A DNA stretch of 64,000 nucleotides, taken from the NCBI RefSeq assembly GCF_020567425.1, contig NZ_JAJCVJ010000003.1, positions 496,001 to 560,000 of the forward strand, written 5' to 3'. Each line of letters opens with the position of its first letter. Position 1 is the first letter of the stretch. Positions 1,461-23,568 of this stretch are shown here, one piece after another. This DNA is from Salinirubrum litoreum (GTDB lineage: Archaea; Halobacteriota; Halobacteria; Halobacteriales; Haloferacaceae). The notes beneath the pieces are model-generated. The model saw nothing but the letters and a program-made list of their open reading frames with translations. It did not search any database and was not told the DNA's origin. The position numbers and the translations under genes were made by a program.

Positions 1461-3608
1461 ATGCCACACGACCATGAAGACAGTCCCGGAGGGATACCTT
1501 CCGGACTCGACAGACGCAGTTTCCTTCGCCTCGGCGGTGCCGCCGTCGGGACGGCGGCGCTGGCCTCCTCGTCGGCAGCAGCGGCGGTCACTCGGTACGA
1601 CATCACCTTCTCCCGGTCCGTGAACGTGGTTGAGGAGTACGGCGTCGATCCGACCGGGTCCGAGCGAGTCGACGACGTGTTACAGGAGCACATCGAAGAC
1701 GACACGCTCTTGATCTTCCCGGAGGGCGAGTACCGGTTCGAGGGCAAACTCGCCGAGTACGGCATGGACCGACTGGGCTTCTACGGCGACGGCGACGTGC
1801 GGTTCGTCGCGCCGGACGGCTTCAACGACATGCTGATCGACTACAACATGATCGGCGAGATCCTCGTCGAGGGGATCACGCTGGACATGACCGCGCCGAA
1901 CACCGTGACCGGGATCGACATCGACGCGAAGTACCGGGCGGTCGTCGAGGACGTGACCTACGAGGGTCGCGGCGTCCACGAGGACACCGGGACGACGAGC
2001 GCGTTCGGGATGTCGATGAAGAACGACGACGCGGTCGGAATCATCCGGAACGTCTCCGTTGAGGAAGGTGGTGCGCTGGGCCACTACGAGGGGGGCAACG
2101 GCCGGATCGGGGTCTACGTCGGCCCGAAGAACGAGGGGACCGTCCGTATCGAGAACACGACACTGGCCGACTTCCCGAACAACTGTGTCTACGCCAGTAA
2201 GACACCCGGTAACGTCGAGGTCGTCGACTGTACTTTCCGGAACAACAACGTCGCGTCCGTCAGGATCAGCGGCGAGGGCAGCTTCGTGAAGAACTCGACG
2301 TTCCTCATCGACCTCGACCAGTACGACGGACCGACCGACGGGATGGACTACTCGTTCAACACTCGCGGTATCTGGCTCGAACAGGGGAGTTTCGACTTCC
2401 CCGGCGGGGCCGTGATCGAAGGCTGTGACATCACCGTGGTCGACACGCGCTCCTGTTCGGGAGCCATCGCACTCGCGGGGTCGGCGAAAGAGACGACCAT
2501 TCGTGACACCGAGATCCGCGTCGACACCGACAGCACGAACGCGATCCGACGGAAACCGCCGAACGACTACGCCCCACTCACTGTCGACAACGTCACCATC
2601 ACCGGCAGTGCCGACGGTGGACAGGCGATCCTGCTGTGGGAGGCGGACGGCTCTGTCGTCAAGAACAGCTGTCTGTACGTCCCCGGCACGAACCGCGACG
2701 GCGTCCGTGCGCTGGAGGCCTCGAACTGTACCGTCGAGAACACGAACATCTCGGCCGGTGGTATCCGTGTCCGGGAGGACAACACGACCGTCTCGACTGC
2801 GGACCTCACCGAGATCGACGCCTGTCCGGTCTCCAGTGTCGACCGGAAGGAACTCCTGATCGAGAGCGTGGGCGACGAAGGCGCGGTCGACTTCGAGGCG
2901 ACCGTCTCCGGCGACGTCGAACGGGGACCGCTCGCGGAGGACTACGACCAGATCGACGGCAGCACGGTACTTGGCCACGTCGCTGGCGGCGGCAAGGACT
3001 CGTTCATGTTCACGGGCGATCTGACGGACTTCGACGTGACATTCGGCGACTACTCCGACGTGCGGGTTTCGGTCGACGGCGAGGAGCAGTTGTGGGCGAC
3101 CGGGAAGAAACTCGAGATCCGCAGCGTCGGCGACGAGAAGGCGGTCAACTTCGAGGCGACCGTCGACGGGAGCGTCGAACGCGGCGACCTCGCGGAGCCC
3201 TACGACGACATCTCGGGCGGGACGATCGAGGGCCACGTCGCCAATGGGGGCGTGGACACGTTTCGGTTCACGGGCGACTTGACGAACTTCGACGTGACGT
3301 ACGGCGACAGCGCCGACGTGGCGGTGCTGGTCGACGGCGAGCAGGTATCGTGGGGGACGTCCCACCGGCTGTTGGTCGAGAGCGTCGGCGACGAAGGGGC
3401 GGTCGACTTCACCGCGACCGTCTCCGGCGAGGCGTGGCGCGGTGACCTCGCGGAGGACTACGATTACGTCTCGGGCGACACGATCGAGGGCCACGTCGCC
3501 GCCGGGAAGGCCGACAGCTACCGCTTCACTGGCGAACTGACCGACTTCTCCGTGACGTTCGGCGACAAACGGGACGTACGAGCTTCGGTCGACGGCGACA
3601 CGATCTGA
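1461..3608 (+). CDS. Tat-exported right-handed beta-helix protein with three C-terminal repeats
   Basis: Predicted secreted protein of 715 residues. The N-terminus has a twin-arginine motif (DRRSFLRLGG, about residues 18-27) followed by an alanine-rich hydrophobic stretch. Residues ~45-450 carry the N-x-x-I/V-x-N-x-x-F spacing of parallel beta-helix proteins (pectate-lyase/NosD-like fold), with many Asn/Asp turns (for example VKNSTFLID, VENTNISAG). Residues ~464-715 are three tandem copies of an ~85-residue unit (DNA ~2848-3105, 3106-3363, 3364-3605). Each begins LLIESVGDEGAVDF-like, has a GHVA.G..D.(F/Y).FTG core and ends VSVDGE. The start was chosen from the TATA spacing. The gene stands alone between divergent and convergent neighbours in a glycan cluster, so polysaccharide binding, lysis or epimerisation is possible; no catalytic residues could be assigned. 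Confidence 0.75.
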   Translation: MPHDHEDSPGGIPSGLDRRSFLRLGGAAVGTAALASSSAAAAVTRYDITFSRSVNVVEEYGVDPTGSERVDDVLQEHIEDDTLLIFPEGEYRFEGKLAEYGMDRLGFYGDGDVRFVAPDGFNDMLIDYNMIGEILVEGITLDMTAPNTVTGIDIDAKYRAVVEDVTYEGRGVHEDTGTTSAFGMSMKNDDAVGIIRNVSVEEGGALGHYEGGNGRIGVYVGPKNEGTVRIENTTLADFPNNCVYASKTPGNVEVVDCTFRNNNVASVRISGEGSFVKNSTFLIDLDQYDGPTDGMDYSFNTRGIWLEQGSFDFPGGAVIEGCDITVVDTRSCSGAIALAGSAKETTIRDTEIRVDTDSTNAIRRKPPNDYAPLTVDNVTITGSADGGQAILLWEADGSVVKNSCLYVPGTNRDGVRALEASNCTVENTNISAGGIRVREDNTTVSTADLTEIDACPVSSVDRKELLIESVGDEGAVDFEATVSGDVERGPLAEDYDQIDGSTVLGHVAGGGKDSFMFTGDLTDFDVTFGDYSDVRVSVDGEEQLWATGKKLEIRSVGDEKAVNFEATVDGSVERGDLAEPYDDISGGTIEGHVANGGVDTFRFTGDLTNFDVTYGDSADVAVLVDGEQVSWGTSHRLLVESVGDEGAVDFTATVSGEAWRGDLAEDYDYVSGDTIEGHVAAGKADSYRFTGELTDFSVTFGDKRDVRASVDGDTI
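2848..3605 (+). repeat. Three tandem ~85-codon repeats inside the beta-helix gene
   Basis: Three in-frame copies share SVGDE.AV.F.ATV.G, R.(P/D)LAE.YD..(S/D)G.T..GHVA.G and FTG(D/E)LT.F.VT(F/Y)GD. Similarity remains high in the DNA as well. The units look like small beta-sandwich modules and recall C-terminal carbohydrate- or wall-associated domains of other secreted haloarchaeal beta-helix proteins. Their function is not known to me. Confidence 0.8.
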
Positions 3609-20741: not shown

Positions 20742-21389
20742 TCACTCCCGCGCGGATTCGATCGCCTCGCGGAACTGCTCTGCTCGCTCTGTCAGTGCGG
20801 CGTAGTCCTCGCGTTCGACCGCGTCGCCGTCGACCAGCGAACTCCCGACACCGACGCCGCCTGCTCCGGCGTCGAAGAAGTCCGCGACGTTGTCCAGCGA
20901 GACGCCGCCGGTCGGGAGCAGTGGGAGTTGCCCGAGTGGCCCGCCGATGGCTCCGACGTAATCCGGGCCGAGCGGCCCGGCGGGGAACACCTTCAGCAGG
21001 TCTGCGCCGGCCTCGCTGGCCTCGACGGCCTCGGTCGGGGTGGCGACACCGGGGGCGACCGCGACCCCGTGGCGGTTGCAGGTCTCGACGACGCCCCGGT
21101 CGAAACTTGGCGTGACGACGAAGTCCGCGCCGGCCCGGAGCGCGGCGCTCGCGGTCTCCGAGTCGAGGACGGTGCCGACCCCGATCAGGGCGTCCTCGCG
21201 GTCGAAGGCGTCGGTCAGGTGGTCGATGGTGTCGATCGCGCCGGGCGTGTCGGCGGTCACTTCCAGCGTCGTGACGCCGCCGGCGACGAGGGCGTCGACG
21301 ACGCGGTGGGTCTGTTCGGCGGGGACGCCCCGGAGGATGCCGACGATACCGGTGTCGAGGATACGACTGACTGCGACGTGTCGCTGCAT
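20742..21389 (-). CDS. 2-dehydro-3-deoxy-6-phosphogluconate/galactonate aldolase (KDPG/KDPGal aldolase, Eda/DgoA type)
   Basis: Class I aldolase of 215 residues that cleaves KDPG or KDPGal to pyruvate and glyceraldehyde-3-phosphate. The Schiff-base lysine is K133 in DLLKVFPAGPLG, with E43 in TTLEVTADTPG and the GVGTVLD and TPSFDRGV segments of the family. PTGGVSLDN binds phosphate. It lies 1.9 kb from the galactoside operon, separated by the hairpin-rich island and iclR, so a role in galactonate breakdown is likely but inferred. No kinase for KDG/KDGal is present in the window. Confidence 0.88.
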   Translation of the reverse strand: MQRHVAVSRILDTGIVGILRGVPAEQTHRVVDALVAGGVTTLEVTADTPGAIDTIDHLTDAFDREDALIGVGTVLDSETASAALRAGADFVVTPSFDRGVVETCNRHGVAVAPGVATPTEAVEASEAGADLLKVFPAGPLGPDYVGAIGGPLGQLPLLPTGGVSLDNVADFFDAGAGGVGVGSSLVDGDAVEREDYAALTERAEQFREAIESARE

Positions 21390-21523
21390 ACTCGGGTGTC
21401 TGTGGTGGTCGGGATAAATCGGTCGGGGGACGACGTGGATGGTGTCGAATGCACTCTAGACGACGCGAGTCGAGAGCCTCCTTCTGACGGGAGTGTCGTC
21501 GAGTTCGTCGCGGACGACGGGGG

Positions 21524-21619
21524 GTGAAAGCCCCCGGACGATAGGATCATCGTTGGGTGAGTCGCAGACAACGAGCGGTGAAAGCCCCCGGCCCCTTTCA
21601 GTCCCACCCGGGGGAATTT
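21524..21619 (-). repeat. Dispersed repeat element, copy 1
   Basis: On the minus strand it reads GTGGGACTGAAAGG, a short variable part, then GGGGGCTTTCACC. The GTGAAAGCCCCCGG arm (plus strand) is present twice, at 21524-21537 and 21578-21591. The TTTCAGTCCCAC arm is at 21596-21607. The same two words in the same order recur at 36793-36852. I believe similar elements are scattered in haloarchaeal genomes, but I know no function. Confidence 0.6.
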
Positions 21620-21690
21620 GCGAAAGCGCACGCAACTCGCGGTGGACCAGTCAGTTTCAGCGATAGCCTCCCTGCGACCGTCGGCTCACC

Positions 21691-21866
21691 TGAGGCGGCC
21701 CTACGCCGCCGAAGTGCGCGACACGAGACCCGCCCGAGGCGGCCCCACGCCGCCGAGGTGTGGTGGCCGAGGCGGCCTCACGCCGCCGAGGTGTGGTGCC
21801 CGAGGCGACCCTTCGTCGCCGAGGTGTGGCACCCGAACCGGGTGCATCCCGGTGAGGTGTCGCGCC
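21691..21866. repeat. Array of five stem-loop units, four of exactly 33 bp
   Basis: Units begin at 21691 (44 bp, with extra bases), 21735, 21768, 21801 and 21834. Each has a 6-bp stem and 5-base loop followed by GAGGTGTGG-like sequence. Stems are GGCGGC/GCCGCC in units 1-3, GGCGAC/GTCGCC in unit 4 and ACCGGG/CCCGGT in unit 5. The changes in units 4 and 5 keep full pairing, which points to selection on structure. Loops vary (CCTAC, CCCAC, CTCAC, CCTTC, TGCAT). A reading frame crosses the array as an 11-residue repeat, but it has no other sign of coding. Confidence 0.75.
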
Positions 21867-21983
21867 AGCCCGTTCGACTGGTCAGGAGCGCGTTCGCTTG
21901 GTCGTTCGTGACGATTAGCGAATCTAAGAATATTCCGTTCGTATATTTTTGATTTGGATTTCTGCGGTTGCGGTCGGCGCGCG

Positions 21984-22134
21984 CGAGGAGTCGTCCTCGT
22001 GAGCTTGCGAACAGGGCGAGACCGGAGGTCTCGCCAGCAACCGGCGCGAAGCGCCGGTGACGAGGGTCAGCGAGAGCGTCGCTCTCGCCAGACGTGCGAG
22101 GGAGTCGGATGCGGGCGGTGCGGAGAGCATCCGA
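21984..22134. repeat. Run of five perfect inverted repeats with short loops
   Basis: Hairpins: CGAGGA/TCCTCG at 21984-21999 (loop GTCG); GCGAGACC/GGTCTCGC at 22016-22034 (loop GGA); ACCGGCGC/GCGCCGGT at 22040-22058 (loop GAA); GCGAGAGC/GCTCTCGC at 22070-22088 (loop GTC); TCGGATGC/GCATCCGA at 22105-22134 (14-base loop). Three of them have an 8-bp stem and 3-base loop but unrelated stem sequences. Such hairpin runs occur between genes in haloarchaea. Their role may be in transcription termination, chromosome structure or RNA processing. Confidence 0.7.
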
Positions 22135-22445
22135 CGAGGTTGGGGAGTGTGAGGTGCGGTGCTGTCGCGGTTCCACTGGGAGGTGCGCTAGATTGAGTGA
22201 GGTTGCCGGTGCGGTGCTGTGTGGTCGCGTTCGCAGTGCTGTGCGGTCTGCGGTTGCTGTCGCGGATGCGTGCTTCTCGTCGGTGCGCTAGCAATCGTCG
22301 CGTTGCTGTCGCTGTTGTGGTCCCGGTAGCTGTCCGCGTGCTGATCACGCCCGAACTCGTCACAACCCGACTTCAGAGCCACGTCCCTACAGCACCATTG
22401 CGCGCAACACCACCGAACACACCAGTTTGAACCCACCCACTCCAC

Positions 22446-22516: not shown

Positions 22517-23260
22517 TCACTCCGCGAGCGCCAACTCGACACTCTTCGCCGCACTCAACACCAGCCCCGGCAGGTCCTCCTCCAGTCGCTTCCCGGAGAG
22601 ACGCTCACCCGGTCCCACGACCGACACACTCGCCACGACACCCGTTTCGCCACGGATCGGTGCCGCCACGCCACGCATCCCCTCGAAGAACTCGCCACGG
22701 TCGTAGGCCAACCCCCGGTCTGCGACCGAGCGCAGTTCCGCCCGTAGGTCGGCCGACTCAGTCACCGTCCGACCGGTGTGTCGGGACAAGCCACCCTCAC
22801 AGTAGTCGTCCACCGCGTCCGGTGAGTCGTAGGCGAGCAACGCCTTCCCGCCGGCCGTCGCGTGCAGTGGCACTCGACTGCCAAGTCGAACCCGGCGGTC
22901 GTTCCGGTCGGCGTCCTGCACGTCGGCGTACACCGCCTCGCGGTCCTCTCGGAGCAGGACCGCCGCCGACTCCCCGCTGGACTCCGACAGCGCGGTCACC
23001 TCCGACCGAGCGACCGTCGGAATCTGCATCCCGTCGCGGACCGCCATCCCCAGATCGAGGAGCTTCAACCCCAACCGATACCGACCGTCCTCCCGCCGCA
23101 CGACGCCCAGTGCTTCCAGCGTGGCGAGGTGGTTGTGAGCCGTCGCCTTCGAGACGCCCACCTCGTCGGCGAGTTCCGTCACACCGGCGTCTTCCACCGG
23201 GACCAGCGCGTGGACGATGCGGGCTGTCGTGTGGGTCGCTCCGACCGGATAGTCGCTCAT
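22517..23260 (-). CDS. IclR family transcriptional regulator
   Basis: A 247-residue DNA-binding regulator. The N-terminal winged helix-turn-helix covers residues ~10-75 (VTELADEVGVSKATAHNHLATLEALGVV). The C-terminal effector domain starts near residue 85 and includes LHATAGGKALLAY and GMRGVAAPI, typical of IclR ligand-binding domains. The ATG at 23260 is 24-30 bases downstream of a minus-strand TATA element (23284-23290), so the message is probably leaderless and this start is preferred to the in-frame codon at 23284. It diverges from the galactoside operon and very likely controls it, with a sugar acid as possible effector. Confidence 0.88.
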   Translation of the reverse strand: MSDYPVGATHTTARIVHALVPVEDAGVTELADEVGVSKATAHNHLATLEALGVVRREDGRYRLGLKLLDLGMAVRDGMQIPTVARSEVTALSESSGESAAVLLREDREAVYADVQDADRNDRRVRLGSRVPLHATAGGKALLAYDSPDAVDDYCEGGLSRHTGRTVTESADLRAELRSVADRGLAYDRGEFFEGMRGVAAPIRGETGVVASVSVVGPGERLSGKRLEEDLPGLVLSAAKSVELALAE

Positions 23261-23568
23261 ACTCCCGTTCGCACGCGCAGTCACTTAAATATCGTTCACC
23301 GATACCGAACGAATCTGGTCGAACGTGAACGATCATGAGGAATATTCACTTCGGCACGATCGTCGTCGAGAGTCCGTGAATCTGCCGAAATCCCCGGAAT
23401 CTCCCCGGATGCGACCGGCAGTGTTGTTCGGTATCGCCGAACACCGAGAATATGAATAACCCCCTTGCGTTCACGAAAACGACTGTCTTAGCGTCTCTAA
23501 ACGTCGATCGCTGAAATCTACCCCAAGTTTTAAGTCGCAACTTTCCAAACCGTGATGATGGACACATC
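23261..23568. promoter_or_regulatory. Divergent control region of iclR and the galactoside operon
   Basis: About 308 bases. The minus-strand TATA element ATTTAAG lies at 23284-23290. The plus-strand element GTTTTAAGT at 23527-23535 gives an expected start near 23557, 12 bases before the ATG at 23569. Operator-like sequences: a 23-base site at 23292-23314 (TCGTTCACCGATACC then GAACGAAT), a related half-site at 23319-23332 (TCGAACGTGAACGA), and a perfect inverted repeat TGTTCGG-TATCG-CCGAACA at 23425-23443 that shares CGATACCGAAC with the first. The first site directly abuts the iclR TATA box, which suggests autoregulation. Confidence 0.65.

Follow-up and report, generated by a model that had tools for sequence, protein, structure and literature searches.

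A hairpin array of Salinirubrum litoreum is one module of a dispersed palindromic repeat with a core found across Halobacteria

Two kinds of short, transposase-free, palindromic multi-copy elements, SMR-A (about 110 bp, with inverted ends) and PATE, have been described from the haloarchaeon Haloquadratum walsbyi (PMC3119063). The SMRs are inserted in palindromes of other repeats, reportedly without target duplication, and the PATEs resemble the ends of IS605, sharing near-terminal palindromes with transposons of the IS605 type (PMC3119063). Palindromes of the REP and BIME kind are connected with RAYT enzymes (PMC2817692, PMC3733652, PMC6006769); the only Y1 enzymes found in archaea are of the IS200 type (subclass 1.1), and archaea reportedly have no enzymes of the RAYT type (PMC6006769). 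The Rickettsia palindromic elements (RPE) occur both in intergenic regions and within conserved genes, where they lie in frame (PMC10969869).

Here we describe an array of five hairpins of S. litoreum, located in a stretch of 64,000 nucleotides which was analysed as a whole and is called the window below. An earlier note on this DNA had taken the array for an undescribed structure under selection at the level of RNA or of a cruciform, not of protein. This interpretation is only partly supported: the array is one module of a dispersed repeat and not a single oddity, and instead of a new RNA it looks like part of a REP-like family of palindromes that is undescribed and probably mobile. No description of the element was found in the literature searched for the letters of its tags and for terms describing it, so it is apparently undescribed, as had been supposed.

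Layout of the window locus

The closest credible genes flanking the array are both on the minus strand, namely a KDPG-aldolase-like ORF (20742-21389) and the gene for an IclR-like regulator (22517-23284). No credible ORF occurs between them, and the array thus lies in a gene-free island, as the earlier note had stated. The five hairpins, each consisting of a 6-bp stem and a 5-nt loop, are present as described there: unit 1 (CCTGA GGCGGC CCTAC GCCGCC GAAGTG) at 21689-21716, units 2 and 3 (both GGCGGC/GCCGCC) at 21733-21760 and 21766-21793, unit 4 (GGCGAC/GTCGCC) at 21799-21826 and unit 5 (ACCGGG/CCCGGT) at 21832-21859, all read on the plus strand like the other features of the locus. Their starts (21689, 21733, 21766, 21799 and 21832) are spaced by 44, 33, 33 and 33 bp; units 2-5 therefore stand on an exact 33-bp period, which was also recovered by TRF, and the start of unit 1 precedes that of unit 2 by 44 bp. 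Each period is composed of a 26-bp unit and a 7-bp spacer. The 33-bp units had been called exact, which is correct for their period but not for their sequences, as these are not identical; the alteration of units 4 and 5 on both sides of the stem was confirmed.

Two helices surround the units, as deduced from the pairing of paralogues. P1, the closing helix of the type A domain described below, is formed by ACCAGTC (21646-21652) and GACTGGT (21876-21882), and P3, which encloses units 2-5, by GCGCGACAC (21716-21724) and GTGTCGCGC (21857-21865). Upstream of P1 we recognised the 3' core tag GGCCCCTTTCAGTCCCACCCG (21590-21610), which is class-wide according to tag counts in the own genome and in other haloarchaea. 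It is abutted by the 5' core tag GGTGAAAGCCCCCGG (21577-21591), and the variable-arm hairpin between the two tags is absent, representing a collapsed ("short") form of the element. An additional 5' core tag, GGGGTGAAAGCCCCCGG (21521-21537), was read by eye and recurs upstream of most copies. The array is followed by a downstream module, GCGGTTGCGGTCGGCGCGCG...GAGGTTGGGGAG...GGTGCTGTCGCGG (21964-22170), which recurs after other copies and contains nested hairpins at about 22015-22035, 22040-22058 and 22070-22088; after cores of another genome (G014; L319, L335), the same module (CTCCCCAGCC..CTCCCTCGCGCG) is oriented opposite to the copy in the window. Between array and module, the otherwise GC-rich island contains an AT-rich stretch at 21908-21960 (GAATATTCCGTTCGTATATTTTTG), and comparable stretches of the form ACGAA..TTCGTATAT adjoin other copies (L033, L035, L043). 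At a distance from the island, positions 2840-3600 of the window hold about 2.6 diverged copies of a tandem repeat of 258 bp, a length that would fit a repeated protein domain.

The 33-bp period is divisible by three and an ORF of 131 aa (21557-21952) spans the array, as would be expected if it encoded a protein with 11-residue repeats. However, no frame is open across all 50 paralogues of the domain, the core lengths of these paralogues modulo three are distributed 12/18/20, and the first spacing amounts to 44 bp. These observations refute the repeat protein at the window locus, and we attribute practically no probability to it.

Copies in the own genome and across Halobacteria

Across the 4.06 Mb of the own genome, the 191-bp array gave 34 matches; the best one is 95% identical and has unrelated flanks. 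The hairpin unit matched 46 places, compared to none for a reversed control. Every strong copy of either was part of a longer element. Its core has the form GAAAGCCCC-[variable stem]-CCCCTTTCAGTCCCACCC and occurs about 90 times in the own genome; the 3' core tag was found at 92 places when up to three mismatches were allowed, versus none for the reversed pattern. About 93% of the elements are intergenic, i.e., outside of ORFs, and no consistent orientation of the elements relative to the neighbouring genes was seen. Collapsed copies without the upstream hairpin are common (the window copy L021, as well as L051, L100 and L110).

Parsing of 87 core loci of the own genome yielded 50 of type A, 33 of type B and four of neither type. 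The type B 3' domain (GTCGTCACTGGTCGTCACCCGG..CCTCCCCGACTGCTGACG), which follows 33 cores (L083, L096 and 31 others), is unrelated to that of type A. Hairpin units are optional in the type A domain, ranging from none (22 of the 50 copies) to a maximum of five in the window copy and in L022, and each added unit lengthens the domain by about 33 nt. Helix P1 is formed by pairing of ACCAGTCG with CGACTGGT and helix P3 by pairing of GCGCGAC(AC) with (GT)GTCGCGC; among 21 zero-unit paralogues, P1 is 98% and P3 100% paired, the latter with two covarying pairs. The mean column identity of type A is 88%, and the sequence is thus kept as well as the structure, which could indicate a function or merely a recent spread. 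A covariance model of the domain, applied to 147 genomes, found it only in the own genome, in at least 50 copies, and in none of the 146 others. Units of the form CCTGA-GCCGGC..GCCGGC-GAAGTG make up another, separate small array at L044 (G000:C2:921443-921540); it starts at the very end of an ORF, and the TGA of the unit may therefore supply the stop codon.

The core is distributed much more widely. Its tag was detected in 48 of 99 haloarchaeal genomes with 0-92 copies each and no hits for the control, and in more than 120 places of named Halobacteria, including Haloarcula, Natrinema, Halorussus, Halobaculum and other genera. High copy numbers are shared by the own genome with G014, G016 and G081, whereas G001, G005 and G013 have no copies. 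Viral contigs of IMG/VR contained no core tag, and a plasmid search returned a single partial match of 49 bases. The core hairpins span about 80-110 nt, and the modules nest in one another. Nearly all cores of one genome (G068) occur as strict inverted pairs at distances of 43-44 bp (e.g., L318), resembling BIMEs. Three congeners were compared at two intergenic sites that are orthologous between them. These sites hold none, one or two cores of differing orientation in collapsed or expanded form, and the nested hairpin modules differ while the flanks are 79-89% identical. No clean pair of an empty and a filled site was obtained between close strains; at a Haloarcula-like locus, the flanks themselves belong to a multi-copy replicon segment, which makes the empty-site comparison uninformative. 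In the window array, a small palindromic unit has undergone a lineage-specific expansion within a mosaic of dispersed palindromes whose core spans Halobacteria.

Some further arrangements were noted in individual genomes. A tandem form at L199 (2960-3110) consists of the 27-nt string CCCCTTTCAGTCCCACCCGAAAGCCCC alternating with palindromes of roughly 32-34 bp, and the reverse complement of the tag bears a faint likeness to the end of a CRISPR repeat (GTGGGACTGAAAG). Within the genus of G054 (L258, L259-L270, L285-L287), the core lies in a 2.4-kb segment present on several contigs of one genome; this segment is conserved between species and adjoins the gene for an OB-fold-looking protein. At about 14060-14680 of L348, the synteny of G016 with its two congeners is broken at an element, which suggests recombination between copies.

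Through partial hits with the array, the hairpin unit itself was found in other genera in the form CGA-stem-loop-stem-GAGGTG. It makes up a 41-bp tandem array in G009, and in G018 an array whose stems differ from one another. A scan for units near cores of other genera gave matches only in loci that had been pre-chosen for their similarity to the array. When a degenerate pattern of the unit was run against 147 genomes, most hits were codon-like false positives, and the real palindromes were concentrated in a few genera. One genus (g17; G016 and G081) carries units inside the genes for MutS, argininosuccinate lyase (argH), topoisomerase I, an FAD (DAO) oxidoreductase, an S9 peptidase and an AMP-binding ligase, in frame with these conserved genes, on both strands and in different frames. 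Comparisons with solved chains showed that the unit in MutS lies in a segment of about 30 residues matched by about two in the homologue, and that the one in the S9 peptidase falls in a gap of the homologue. Because of these in-frame copies, the statement that selection is not on protein fails for the unit in general, while it holds for the window locus, which is noncoding as judged from the 50 paralogues. Two units (L394, L402) lie between 7-bp direct repeats that match exactly, CGATGCC and CGTCGCC. Such repeats were exact at only two of 12 non-tandem sites, and their excess over the 12 sites has a set-wide p of 0.014 for the best of four offsets.

Complementary arms and the case for an RNA

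Among 32 distinct units, 96.4% of the stem cells pair, and in 20 cells both partners have changed, compared to 4.6 after shuffling and 0-1 when the partner was slid. Pairing is thus retained despite sequence change, in agreement with the earlier claim. The helix of the unit runs on across a conserved GA/GA to two further pairs, resulting in a structure of two outer pairs, the tandem GA/GA, a variable 6-bp stem and a short loop; one of the outer pairs is switched from C-G to U-A in 11 units. The outer hairpin arms of the core likewise vary from copy to copy with their complementarity retained. After removal of duplicates, 139 distinct arm pairs showed 93-95% Watson-Crick pairing versus 52-77% with exchanged or shuffled arms, a value inflated by the admission of arm pairs at a minimum of 8 out of 12 pairs, which introduces no bias on G.U versus A.C. 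The core tags are nearly invariant in a set that was chosen by that tag, and both stems contain fixed non-Watson-Crick motifs, GA/GA in the unit and C-rich/C-rich in the core. Orthologous cores on related replicons display stepwise compensation from ACGCCG..CGGCGT to ACGGCG..CGCCGT with an A.C intermediate.

Such a pattern would be produced by a large structured non-coding RNA or cis-acting RNA element, transcribed from either strand, in which P1, P3, the units and the upstream stem form one multibranched fold. The nearly complete pairing of P1 and P3 around the units, the conserved tags and the compensation at orthologous sites are all consistent with it, as are folding z-scores of about -2 on either strand (-2.0 for a plus-strand and -2.2 for a minus-strand RNA, -0.9 for DNA), although the folding stability by itself is unremarkable. 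For a selected RNA, we expected G.U pairs to clearly exceed A.C mismatches on the transcribed strand. The core arms contain 21 G.U and 39 A.C among 1668 cells of the plus strand, and the unit stems two and five, respectively; with G.U the rarer of the two, these counts lend no support to selection acting on an RNA of the plus strand. The surplus of A.C equals wobble pairs on the minus strand and leaves a minus-strand RNA weakly possible, but G.U makes up only about 1% of the cells and shows no plus-strand excess, in contrast to the wobble tolerance on one strand that an RNA would display. Moreover, many copies, including that of the window, are devoid of the upstream hairpin, the orientation to genes is not fixed, and units are located inside protein genes elsewhere. 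No Rfam family matched the window copy, and 20 loci of relatives yielded nothing except a tRNA and a leuA leader. We therefore consider a functional RNA unlikely and do not follow the earlier note in reading the signature as RNA.

The rarity of both G.U and A.C and the many double switches from C-G to G-C without an intermediate would fit a mutational by-product, in which correction of quasi-palindromes and copying between paralogues keep the arms complementary without selection or mobility, and the array, with its exact 33-bp period, is a slippage repeat. Taken alone, this process leaves the 0-92 copies per genome, the class-wide non-palindromic tags and the units inside genes unexplained. 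As the sole cause it is very improbable; it probably contributes to the explanation favoured below and does not compete with it.

Possible mode of spread and comparison with known systems

Because the hairpins are repeated within an element of about 90 copies and the core is class-wide, we favour a REP-like family of palindromes over a new RNA. The array has likely arisen by the multiplication in tandem of a small palindromic DNA unit, in a mosaic of dispersed hairpin modules similar in kind to REP, BIME or RPE sequences and to the SMR and PATE elements of Haloquadratum. Searching for a mobiliser, we found none of three Y1 transposase hits and none of 15 TnpB hits of the own genome near core copies, and an association with RAYT or IS605 was therefore rejected for this genome. 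Together with the restriction of archaeal Y1 enzymes to the IS200 type, this leaves the element with no known cognate enzyme.

The fixed non-Watson-Crick motif within each stem suggests that unit and core may be recognised as folded single strands. New copies would then be pasted in by an enzyme acting in trans, probably a hypothetical ssDNA transposase of the HUH or a similar type. After insertion, gene conversion and correction templated by the hairpin, not selection on a transcript, would maintain the complementarity of the arms. The 33-bp array may grow via repeated insertion or slippage, and the 7-bp spacer adjoining the 26-bp unit in each period may be a decayed target repeat. A more far-reaching and tentative proposal, which we regard as possible but rather doubtful, is that Halobacteria possess a class-wide set of palindromes recognised as folded single strands by the fixed motif in an otherwise free stem, and that a dedicated, so far unrecognised enzyme other than RAYT or IS605 inserts them into intergenic regions, into each other and, in frame, into housekeeping genes. 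The family described here would constitute an archaeal counterpart of the REP and RPE repeats, although archaea reportedly lack RAYT enzymes, and a source of intergenic turnover and in-frame protein insertions. A REP-like family at about 90 copies per genome, whose tag is conserved across Halobacteria while its arms change freely as matched pairs, also cautions against taking covariation in dispersed palindromes as proof of a functional RNA.

Large structured RNAs such as GOLLD, ROOL, HEARO and similar ones possess a multibranched fold with expandable hairpins. The present element differs from them by the missing Rfam match and wobble excess, by its tens of copies and by the lack of a fixed gene context. 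With SMR and PATE, compared by their descriptions, it shares the character of transposase-free haloarchaeal multi-copy palindromes nesting in the palindromes of other repeats. Those are families of one species as described, whereas the core found here occurs throughout the class and has arms that vary freely in sequence. SMRs reportedly cause no target duplication, while some of the units are flanked by 7-bp repeats, with mixed results across sites; PATEs, again by description, have IS605-like ends, while none of the 15 TnpB genes of the own genome is close to a core copy. The units in frame within protein genes of genus g17 resemble RPEs, but RPEs are bacterial and about 150 bp long, compared to an archaeal unit of 26-33 bp whose copy in the window is not in a gene. 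In REP and BIME sequences, the palindrome has GTAG or CGTC as a tag at its foot, in place of which we find GAAAGCCCC/CCCCTTTCAGTCCCACCC and CGA/GAGGTG, and their Y1 gene is flanked by copies, unlike any of the three Y1 hits of the own genome. The element nevertheless resembles them as a set of high-copy intergenic palindromes with a fixed tag, an imperfect stem and a patchy occurrence between species; its 92 core tags, about 93% outside of ORFs, fall within the tens to hundreds of mainly intergenic copies typical of REP sequences, and the paired cores of G068, 43-44 bp apart, correspond to their inverted pairs.
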